Shown: positions 4,107 through 60,448 of the stretch, piece after piece
How the letters are laid out: each line of letters opens with the position of its first letter
Position numbering within the stretch: position 1 is the stretch's first letter
Assembly: GCA_014650475.1 (NCBI GenBank)
Contig: BMVA01000007.1
Location: forward strand, 62,001 to 126,000
Direction of reading: 5' to 3'
Length of the DNA: 64,000 nucleotides
Source of the DNA: Streptomyces albogriseolus
Lineage (GTDB): Bacteria; Actinomycetota; Actinomycetes; Streptomycetales; Streptomycetaceae
Program-made: the position numbers and the translations under genes
Notes under the pieces: model-generated
What the model saw: only the letters and a program-made list of their open reading frames with translations
The model's database searches: none
What the model was told of the DNA's origin: nothing

Positions 4107-4158
4107 GACGGCTCCTCGTGGTGTGCGGGCCGGGTCCTTCCCGGCCTCTCACCCCTGC

Positions 4159-4185
4159 GTCGAACGGCACGGACGGAAATCGACA
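4159..4185 (-). promoter_or_regulatory. Candidate ECF42 promoter (TGTCGA-N17-CGAC)
   Basis: Read on minus, TGTCGA (4185-4180) is followed after 17 bases by CGAC (4162-4159), 52 bases before the DGPF gene ATG. From memory, ECF42 of S. venezuelae recognises TGTCGA in the -35 and CGA(T/C)-like in the -10 region. This supports autoregulation of the DGPF-sigma operon. Confidence 0.55.
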
Positions 4186-4333
4186 CCCGGCCGGAGAAAT
4201 CTTCGCCTCACTTCGGCGAGACCCGCAGCCGCCCGGCCTCGGGCACGTCAGCCACCACCCGGTCGGGGTCGTCCGGCTCGGTGATCCGCCGGACCAGCGC
4301 ACCACCCGACGGCTCAGCGCACCGCCCGCCAGC

Positions 4334-5386
4334 TCAGTGCGCCGCCGGCGCGGCCGTGCTGCTCCGCACCACCAGGCTGGTGGCCAGCTCCACGCGGGTC
4401 GCCGCGGCGGAGTCCTCGCCCTTGCCGAGGTCGAGCACCAGCTTCGCCGCCGCCTCCGCCATCTCCGTCAGCGGCTGCCGCACGGTCGTCAGCGGCGGGC
4501 CCACCCAGCGGGCCACGGGCAGGTCGTCGAAGCCGACCACGCTCAGGTCCTCAGGGATCCGCAGGCCCAGCTCACGGGCGGCCTCGTACAGCCCGAGCGC
4601 CTGGAGGTCGTTGCCGGCGAAGACCGCGGTGGGCCGGTCCTCGCGGCGCAGCAGGGCGAGGCCCTGCCGGTAGCCGGCGTCGTGGTGGAAGTCACCGGAC
4701 ACGATCAGTGACGGGTCCACCGGCAGCCCGGCGGTCTCCAGGGCGGCCCGGTAGCCGTCGACGCGGGCGCGGCTGCACATCATCCGCGAGGGTCCGCTGA
4801 TCGCGCCGATCCGGGTGTGGCCCAGCTCGATCAGATGCCGGGTGGCGGCGAGCCCGCCCTGCCAGTTGGTCGCGCCGATGGAGGGCACGTCGGTGCCCGG
4901 GTCGCCGGCCGGGTCCATCACCACGAACGGGATGGAACGGCTGGTCAGCAGCGCGCGTCCGGACTCGTCGAGGCCGGACAGCACAAGGATCACGCCGTGC
5001 GGGCGGCGGGCGGCGACCTGGTCGGCCCAGGTGCGGCCGGGGGTGAGCCGCCCCGCGCTCTCCGACAGCACCACGCTCAGCCCGGCGTCCCGGGCGACGT
5101 TCTCCACGCCCCGGATGACCTCCATCGCCCAGGCGCTCTCCAGCTCGTGGAAGACCAGGTCGATCAGGGGGGAGCGACTGGCCTCGGCGCGGCGGCGCCG
5201 GTATCCGTGGGTGCGCAGCAGCTCCTCGACCCGGGAACGGGTGCCGGGGGCGACGTCGGCGCGGCCGTTGAGCACCTTCGAAACAGTCGGCGCGGAGACA
5301 CCCGCCTCGCGGGCGATCTCAGCGAGCGTCGCGGTCTGCGTGCTGCGCCCGTGGGTCCGGGTGTCAGCGGGCTGCGGGGAAGTCAT
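4334..5386 (-). CDS. LacI-family transcriptional regulator (likely xylan/xylose-type)
   Basis: A 350-aa LacI/GalR regulator. The N-terminal helix-turn-helix and hinge are at about 18-70 (TLAEIAREAGVSAPTVSKVL, then NGRADVAPGTRSRVEELL). The rest is a periplasmic-binding-like sugar sensor (GAISGPSRM, VFAGNDLQALG, VVGFDDLPVARWVGPPLTT). ATG 5386 leaves a short leader before the HTH. Its own promoter region carries two CGAA-N3-TTCG-type sites; the same paired sites precede the GH10 xylanase gene at 60387, so a xylan-derived effector is inferred. Confidence 0.9.
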   Translation of the reverse strand: MTSPQPADTRTHGRSTQTATLAEIAREAGVSAPTVSKVLNGRADVAPGTRSRVEELLRTHGYRRRRAEASRSPLIDLVFHELESAWAMEVIRGVENVARDAGLSVVLSESAGRLTPGRTWADQVAARRPHGVILVLSGLDESGRALLTSRSIPFVVMDPAGDPGTDVPSIGATNWQGGLAATRHLIELGHTRIGAISGPSRMMCSRARVDGYRAALETAGLPVDPSLIVSGDFHHDAGYRQGLALLRREDRPTAVFAGNDLQALGLYEAARELGLRIPEDLSVVGFDDLPVARWVGPPLTTVRQPLTEMAEAAAKLVLDLGKGEDSAAATRVELATSLVVRSSTAAPAAH

Positions 5387-5436
5387 GGCGGCGATCGTAT
5401 CTCCGCGAGCCGCGAGGACGAAGACCTGCGACAGTC

Positions 5437-5468
5437 CGGAACATTCGAAACGTATGACGAAACATTCG
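5437..5468. promoter_or_regulatory. Paired CGAA-N3-TTCG operator upstream of the LacI-family gene
   Basis: Two 11-bp quasi-palindromes, CGGAACATTCG (5437-5447) and CGAAACATTCG (5458-5468), have centres exactly 21 bp apart, two helical turns. They lie 51-82 bases upstream of the regulator's ATG. The same pair with the same spacing occurs before the xylanase gene (60417-60448). Confidence 0.7.
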
Positions 5469-59217: not shown

Positions 59218-60387
59218 TCAGTGCTTGTGGTGCTTCGGGCCCTTCCCGCAGTCGTCGTGGCGGGCTTCCTTCAGGGTGTCGCGCAGGGCGTAGTACGCCG
59301 GCTTGCGGTCGAAGTCCTCCGTCATGACCGTCGCGAAGCCCTCACCCTGGAAGAACACCGGGACCCACGAGTACTTGTCGGTGAAGCCCCAGATGGTGAA
59401 CGAGTTGCAGCCGTCGACCTCCAGGCACGCCTGGAGCATCCGCTGGTAGTACTCGGCCTGCTGCTTCTCCTGGGCCGGGGTCGGGAGCGACCCCTCCGGC
59501 ACGTCCATGCGGACGTCCAGCTCGGTGACCGCGGTCTCCAGGCCCAGCGCGTCGAAGCGGCGCAGGTTGTCCGCGAGGTCGCCGGGGAAGCCGTACCGCG
59601 TGCTCAGGTGGCCCTGCACGGAGAAGCCGTGCACCGGCACCCGCTGCGCGCGCAGGTCCTTCACCAGGGCGTAGTAGGCGTCGCTCTTCGCGTTGACGCC
59701 CTCGACGTTGTAGTCGTTGAAGAACAGCTTCGCCTTGGGGTCGGCCTGGTGGGCCCAGCGGAACGCGTCCGCGACGATCTCCGGACCGAGCTCACGGATC
59801 CAGATGTTGTCCTGCGTGCGCAGGTTGCCCTGGTCGTCGAAGATCTCGTTCGCCACGTCCCACTGCTGGATCCTGCCCTTGTACCGGCCGACCACCGTGG
59901 TGATGTGCTCGCGCAGGATGCCGCGCAGCTCTGCCTTGGTGAAGTCGCCCTCCTCCAGCCAGGCCGGGTTCTGGCTGTGCCACAACAGCGTGTGCCCGCG
60001 CACCACTTGGCGGTTCTTGCGGGCGAACTCGACGATCGCGTCCGCCTGCCCGAAGTCGTAGCGGTCGCGCTCGGGGTGGATGTAGTCCCACTTCATCTGG
60101 TTCTCGGGCGAGACCGAGCTGAACTCCCGGCCCAGTACCTTCCGGTACTCCTTGTCGTACGTGAAGGGGTCCGGGTAGTCCTGCTCCAGGTGGTGGCCGC
60201 CGCCCGCCACGGCGGTGCCGATCACGAAACCTTCGGGGGCGGCCGCGCGCAGCCGGTCGAACTGGGCGTGGGAGTGCTGCGGCGGCTTGGGGCCGGCCGG
60301 CGAGGCGGCGGTCGCCGAACCGCCGAGGAGCGGCAGGGCCAGTGCCGCGGTGGCGAGGGCCACGGTGGCGAAACGGAACGGTCTCAT
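59218..60387 (-). CDS. Secreted GH10 endo-1,4-beta-xylanase
   Basis: 389 aa: signal peptide (about 1-28, ATA-A), a single GH10 barrel and a short His/Lys tail; no carbohydrate-binding module. The catalytic acid/base Glu181 is in WDVANEIF and the nucleophile Glu289 in TELDVRM; HTLLWHSQNPAW (132-143) is the substrate-binding strand. Cleaves xylan outside the cell. Two CGAA-N3-TTCG-type sites lie just upstream, matching those at the LacI-family gene near 5.4 kb. Confidence 0.96.
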   Translation of the reverse strand: MRPFRFATVALATAALALPLLGGSATAASPAGPKPPQHSHAQFDRLRAAAPEGFVIGTAVAGGGHHLEQDYPDPFTYDKEYRKVLGREFSSVSPENQMKWDYIHPERDRYDFGQADAIVEFARKNRQVVRGHTLLWHSQNPAWLEEGDFTKAELRGILREHITTVVGRYKGRIQQWDVANEIFDDQGNLRTQDNIWIRELGPEIVADAFRWAHQADPKAKLFFNDYNVEGVNAKSDAYYALVKDLRAQRVPVHGFSVQGHLSTRYGFPGDLADNLRRFDALGLETAVTELDVRMDVPEGSLPTPAQEKQQAEYYQRMLQACLEVDGCNSFTIWGFTDKYSWVPVFFQGEGFATVMTEDFDRKPAYYALRDTLKEARHDDCGKGPKHHKH

Positions 60388-60416: not shown

Positions 60417-60448
60417 CGAATGTTTCGAAGTAGCATCCGAAACATTAG
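60417..60448. promoter_or_regulatory. Paired CGAA-N3-TTCG operator upstream of the xylanase gene
   Basis: CGAATGTTTCG (60417-60427) and CGAAACATTAG (60438-60448) have centres exactly 21 bp apart and lie 30-61 bases before the xylanase ATG. The first is the exact reverse complement of the site at 5458-5468. Confidence 0.75.

Follow-up and report, generated by a model that had tools for sequence, protein, structure and literature searches.

BxlR, a LacI-family regulator, has been described in Streptomyces thermoviolaceus, in S. lividans (SLI7232), and in strain SirexAA-E (SACTE_0535), and it shares with the regulator described here the CGAA-Nx-TTCG sites and, as predicted for the latter, the xylanase targets (PMC4743123, PMC12772271; both are quoted from the portions of their text available to us). 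The site of the S. thermoviolaceus protein, CGAAACTTTCG, is also the motif of xylan-related promoters (PMC4743123), and CGAANNTTTCG is present at two xylanase promoters and upstream of SACTE_0535 (PMC12772271). BxlR responds to xylobiose, and deletion of bxlR in S. lividans raised the activity of a xylanase promoter without fully releasing it (PMC4743123). XlnR of S. lividans is likewise implicated in xylanase expression in the available text of PMC4743123; the reference cited there for XlnR is by its title a GntR-family paper, so that this is probably another protein, and XlnR was rejected as the identity of our regulator.

The window analyzed here, a stretch of 64,000 nucleotides from Streptomyces albogriseolus, contains a regulator gene, designated LacI-W, and a xylanase gene, each preceded by two boxes:

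4334 to 5386, minus strand: LacI-W, LacI-family regulator of the BxlR type, 350 residues (PF00356 and PF13377)
5437 to 5447, no strand: operator box CGGAACATTCG, the weaker of the two in the LacI-W doublet, near edge at -51 from the ATG
5458 to 5468, no strand: operator box CGAAACATTCG, the stronger of the two, centre 21 bp from that of CGGAACATTCG
59218 to 60387, minus strand: GH10 endo-xylanase, 389 residues (PF00331, E 1.6e-94)
60417 to 60427, no strand: operator box CGAATGTTTCG (reverse complement CGAAACATTCG), with its near edge at -30 relative to the GH10 start codon
60438 to 60448, no strand: operator box CGAAACATTAG (reverse complement CTAATGTTTCG), 21-bp partner of CGAATGTTTCG

Pfam searches agreed with the preliminary description in assigning the first gene to the LacI family and the second to the GH10 xylanases. 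LacI-W contains both the DNA-binding (LacI) and the sugar-binding (Peripla_BP_3) domains of the family, and the xylanase scored 317 bits against PF00331, for a curated cut-off of 22.1. Judged by eye, the N terminus of the xylanase looks like a secretion signal. Our own gene caller, a G+C heuristic, starts LacI-W too late (263 versus 350 residues). The four boxes reported to fit CGAA-N3-TTCG with at most one mismatch were all present, and the centre-to-centre distance was indeed 21 bp at both promoters. Single boxes at this stringency are not rare, with 49 in the window for 22.8 expected. In contrast, doublets at 21 bp occurred only at the two noted promoters, and none was found in 100 shuffles of the window. 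The whole genome (8.07 Mb) has such a doublet at three places, the third (C5:42731) being G+C-rich. An exact CGAAACCTTCG is also present at position 60225, within the GH10 coding sequence, with no 21-bp partner among the matches listed.

CebR, the LacI-family cellobiose repressor, has the operator TGGGAGCGCTCCCA. It resembles LacI-W as a sugar-responsive LacI regulator of polysaccharide genes, a role that is predicted for LacI-W, but its operator is another, even-spaced sequence, unlike the LacI-W box. Like BxlR, LacI-W is in some relatives divergent from a BxlE-F-G-GH3 cluster. Unlike BxlR, which keeps a bxlEFGA-type cluster in the same genome, LacI-W is a lone gene in the window, 55 kb away from the xylanase gene. 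In addition, its boxes deviate from the perfect form (CGAAACATTCG) and occur as pairs at 21 bp, whereas the published BxlR boxes are CGAAACTTTCG or CGAANNTTTCG in the available text (PMC4743123, PMC12772271). An exact-string literature search with CGAAACATTCG retrieved no Streptomyces paper by title, and the 21-bp doublet was not mentioned in the titles and first parts of the abstracts retrieved; the S. thermoviolaceus BxlR paper, which was outside the scope of that search, may describe it. Both the type of regulator and the box are already known. In the literature searched, to which the original BxlR paper did not belong, no mention was found of the exact doublet, of its association with imperfect boxes, or of a regulator standing alone.

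Conservation was analyzed in two samples. The first consisted of the named orthologs of LacI-W, taken as the best 80 of 337 relatives (89 to 100% identity), and the second of 41 genomes searched whole, each with a LacI-W ortholog of at least 74% identity and including the window's genome. In the window, the divergent bxlEFG-GH3 (BxlA) cluster is absent, and no GH10 gene, BxlE-like gene, or second bxl-like cluster adjoins LacI-W. Among the best 80 of 337, 50 had at least one GH3, BxlE, BxlF, or BxlG gene upstream or a GH10 gene in the locus, 29 had no such cluster genes, and one locus was too short to tell. The full layout, with a divergent BxlE-F-G-GH3 cluster, LacI-W, and a downstream GH10 gene, was found in some relatives (L125, L131, L155, L162, and L166), and parts of it in others. 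A GH10 gene lay downstream in 14 of these 80 loci, although some of the sequences stop before such a gene could be seen. In the genomes searched whole, a GH10 gene was located 123 to 472 bp downstream of LacI-W on the same strand in 16 of 41 (matches at E ≤1e-60), a BxlE-like gene (E ≤1e-95) adjoined LacI-W in 17 of 41, and one or the other neighbor was present in 26 of 41. In G027 and G061, LacI-W and the window-type GH10 gene form a separated pair at a distance of 49 to 53 kb. It is probable from this comparison that LacI-W of the window works like, and descends from, the regulator of a bxl-type locus, although it is not inside one.

Three further observations concern these loci. At L249, L237, L232, L305, and L247, the interval from LacI-W to the downstream GH10 gene contains one perfect CGAAASTTTCG box. 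In G027 and G061, LacI-W is followed by a gene of about 350 codons (L390, 7449 to 8540; L388, 7446 to 8495), by eye of the LytR-CpsA-Psr type, of which positions 4107 to 4333 of the window are an apparent C-terminal remnant, the rest being missing. The LacI-W cluster of S. thermodiastaticus can encode a GH3 protein of 770 residues and a LacI protein of 342 residues. The corresponding bxl proteins of S. thermoviolaceus have 770 and 343 residues, and by protein sizes LacI-W may be nearer than BxlR to the S. thermoviolaceus regulator.

The doublet upstream of LacI-W was present with at most two mismatches in 78 of the best 80 of 337 named orthologs, the exceptions being L107 and L127, and in 38 of the 41 genomes searched whole, the remaining three having it at three mismatches. 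For the 50 cluster-bearing relatives among the best 80 of 337, the box columns contained 1.6 to 2.0 bits and the 10 spacer columns 0.1 to 0.8 bits. A spacer of fixed length and free sequence is as expected for two proteins bound in register. In the same relatives, the 13 columns adjacent to the second box contained 0.8 to 2.0 bits, indicating that the boxes are not the only sequence held there. All 50 had the doublet at one mismatch, in comparison to 16 of the 29 named relatives without cluster genes, in which the doublet otherwise had two (11 relatives) or three (2 relatives) mismatches. Its retention at up to two mismatches in 27 of these 29 relatives is as autoregulation would require. A GGAA-type flank beside the second box was found in 46 of the 50 relatives with cluster genes versus 3 of the 29 without; as seen in L088 to L167, the flank to the right of this box is GGAACCTATGGCG-like in cluster-bearing relatives and mostly absent where the cluster genes are gone. 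The pattern fits an operator that would still be maintained, though somewhat less strictly, for control of the regulator itself. Among the 80 named upstream regions, spacings of 27 bp and 12 bp at up to two mismatches were found in 29 and 9, respectively, versus 78 for 21 bp, and the 27-bp spacing may be attributable to the conserved flank in one homologous family.

Upstream of the xylanase gene, the doublet was present in three of five window-type GH10 orthologs (76 to 93% identity). In G061 and G027 (93%) and in G017 (79%), both boxes were found at 21 bp with diverged spacers, and the CGAATGTTTCG box occupied the same position in the two 93% orthologs. One box was found in G065 (77%) and none in G043 (76%). 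Among 24 distant GH10 genes (45 to 58%), the 700 bp upstream contained a doublet in 1 and an exact single box in 4.

The spacing was also evaluated independently of the two promoters by collecting all CGAAACATTCG sites in 25 genomes, regardless of spacing; 18 of the genomes had any, for a total of 51 sites, and a partner box was scored if it matched at least 6 of 8 positions. A partner was found at exactly 21 bp for 28 of the 51 sites, versus 0 to 5 for every other distance between 11 and 60. The 28 paired sites comprised 11 LacI-W promoters and 17 sites at GH10, GH11, GH43, GH62, or binding-protein loci, the latter 17 representing about seven kinds of promoter and hence not all independent. 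Among the 23 unpaired sites, 12 were at plant-polysaccharide genes, including those for an LPMO, GH27, and glucuronoyl esterase, and 11 had no such link. The difference in gene content between paired and unpaired sites gave Fisher p values of 3e-5 and, with the LacI-W promoters left out, of 8e-4, both of which are too small because sites in related promoters are not independent. The labels of all 51 sites were assigned manually from annotations and none was dropped; for the 11 sites called unrelated, the neighbors were checked against Pfam in part. One of the latter (G003:C13, L396) lies between genes for a sugar-binding protein and another LacI regulator, and the L383 site is 509 bp upstream of a GH62 gene, with a short gene call between. 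The GH10 label given by tblastn to L380, L273, and L381 proved to be an accessory-domain match, Pfam assigning GH27, GH27, and glucuronoyl esterase, respectively, and L374, GH10-like by eye, is GH27 according to Pfam.

Perfect boxes behaved differently. For 49 CGAAASTTTCG sites in 15 genomes, a partner was found at 21 bp in 6 cases, 5 of which are one homologous promoter, and at 20 bp in 3. The difference in pairing between imperfect and perfect boxes gave a Fisher p value of 7e-6, or 0.0015 minus the LacI-W promoters. Perfect boxes being mostly single, the doublet was ruled out as a universal layout.

The preliminary description had proposed a regulatory link between LacI-W and the xylanase as an inference, which is now backed by the GH10 genes found downstream of LacI-W in relatives, by the conserved doublets, and by the gene content of the paired sites. 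We therefore consider it likely, on the strength of these comparisons, that LacI-W is a BxlR-type sugar-responsive repressor acting on its own gene and on the GH10 gene through the CGAA-N3-TTCG doublets and released by a product of xylan. Each box would be bound by one LacI dimer. Since 21 bp corresponds to two helical turns, two dimers would lie side by side on one face of the DNA, and two imperfect boxes could thereby make up one strong cooperative operator, located 30 to 82 bp before the start codon, where transcription can be blocked. The inducer would be a product of xylan breakdown, with xylobiose or another xylo-oligosaccharide as the most likely candidate, as suggested by the neighboring genes in relatives and by the xylobiose response reported for BxlR in the available text of PMC4743123. 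In relatives, LacI-W is part of a second bxl-like cluster consisting of an ABC transporter, a GH3 gene, LacI-W, and a GH10 gene, and the lineage of the window most likely lost the cluster neighbors while retaining the regulator and its operator.

The window's genome contains 32 matches to LacI-W, itself included. The nearest paralog, 61% identical, is BxlR (C1:627493). In the BxlR cluster (C1:621911-628512), which has the bxlEFGA layout, Pfam identified the first gene as that of a binding protein and the last as a GH3 gene; the middle two have the length of transporter genes. LacI-W is thus BxlR-like, yet it is not the regulator of the C1 cluster. A second paralog, on C16, is 57% identical, and another (C4:316603), 45% identical to LacI-W, is probably CebR-like, to judge from its neighbors. 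The recognition-helix stretch reads SAPTVSKV in LacI-W, SMPTVSKV in BxlR, and SVPTVSRV in the C16 protein, so that LacI-W and BxlR differ by one residue. Only the helix sequences were used from a tree of 22 proteins, which had long branches and an unsure root and in which LacI-W did not form one clade at the midpoint root. At residues of about 60 to 75, after the DNA-binding domain, LacI-W has four residues fewer than PurR and lacks the hinge-helix motif; LacI-W can be aligned over this stretch with both BxlR and the C16 protein. The C16 regulator, of the BxlR type (L075, 7410 to 8438; C16:185410-186438), has no adjoining xylan genes in the window's genome. Its relatives in G022 (86%) and G009 (87%) end a GH43-transporter-GH10 cluster and a transporter-GH10 cluster, respectively, with the same doublets.

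The claim that the regulator and xylanase genes share an operator holds insofar as the sites are common to both; they are not private to the pair, being the known BxlR box found across a xylan regulon, and at least one more regulator of this genome, BxlR, should use the same box. It is unlikely, in our view, that the sites are operators of BxlR with LacI-W as a mere target whose own specificity is different or lost. In favor of this reading, the box is the one published for BxlR, in the available text of PMC4743123 and PMC12772271, and BxlR is encoded in the window's genome beside a bxlEFGA-type cluster, with a box immediately upstream of bxlE. BxlR and the C16 protein, with their similar recognition helices, could bind the same boxes. 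However, when 20 candidates per genome were scored, the BxlR clade, defined as at least 70% identity to the genome's BxlR, was detected at E 1e-95 in 18 of 101 genomes, LacI-W in 41, and both in 6. The 35 of 41 LacI-W genomes without a BxlR-clade match, in which some BxlR may be missed, keep the doublet (G003 at three mismatches), which points to LacI-W itself. The single difference in the helix stretch also argues against a divergent specificity and makes overlap between the two regulators likely in the window's genome, and identities of 89 to 100% among the best 80 of 337 relatives, including cluster-free species, argue against a decaying gene. Mutual exclusion of the BxlR and LacI-W loci was rejected, since the 6 genomes with both are about the number given by independence (41 × 18 / 101).

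Quite improbably, LacI-W, BxlR, and the C16 protein might use the boxes in common and act jointly, perhaps in response to different oligosaccharides. The similar helices of the three paralogs, the position of the C16-type regulator in the G022 cluster, and the occurrence of single, double, and mixed boxes all favor joint action, but the same 35 genomes gave no BxlR match (20 candidates per genome scored). That the promoter match is a coincidence, or a conserved sequence without regulatory role, is scarcely credible, because doublets were absent from the window shuffles, the boxes are conserved while the spacer drifts, and one exact spacing stood out among sites picked regardless of spacing, even though one-mismatch doublets do arise by chance inside gene calls (31 of 54 among the matches listed).

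These 54 are the genus-wide doublets among the matches listed, G000 and the LacI-W promoters left out. The preliminary description had expected a genome scan to place paired sites at xylan or xylose genes and not at random. This expectation was borne out outside gene calls, where the other 23 doublets are in or near transporter, GH10, GH43, or GH6 loci and thus at polysaccharide or bxl-like genes; random scatter was seen only inside gene calls, where most of the 31 doublets look like coding coincidence. The L273 doublet, within a gene call, is 272 bp upstream of a GH27 gene. The odds seem to us about even that the xylan genes of Streptomyces use a two-grade operator code, in which a perfect box (CGAAASTTTCG) would usually act alone and the imperfect CGAAACATTCG as a 21-bp cooperative doublet, paired BxlR-type dimers making up for the low affinity of a single imperfect box, with LacI-W as a free-standing master regulator after loss of its cluster.

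Streptomyces xylanase promoters serve for protein expression. The incomplete release observed in the S. lividans bxlR deletion mutant (PMC4743123, in its available text) would be explicable if that species has a second BxlR-type regulator that acts on these boxes. The exact 21-bp spacing may provide a precise signature for members of the regulon in Streptomyces genomes. Retention of the lone regulator would illustrate how a local repressor can persist after the loss of its operon.

Exact CGAAA-N2-TTCG boxes of the window's genome, whose places were annotated in part, precede bxlE, two GH11 genes, and the two other GH10 genes, as well as GH62, LPMO, and GH12 genes, and one is located between genes for an ABC permease and an acetyl xylan esterase. 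The remaining boxes examined were inside gene calls or beside genes without a link to xylan. The perfect box upstream of the GH12 gene (L076, 8138 to 8159; C1:199138) runs straight into GGGAGCGCTCCC, a sequence similar to the CebR operator, and this gene may be under joint control.
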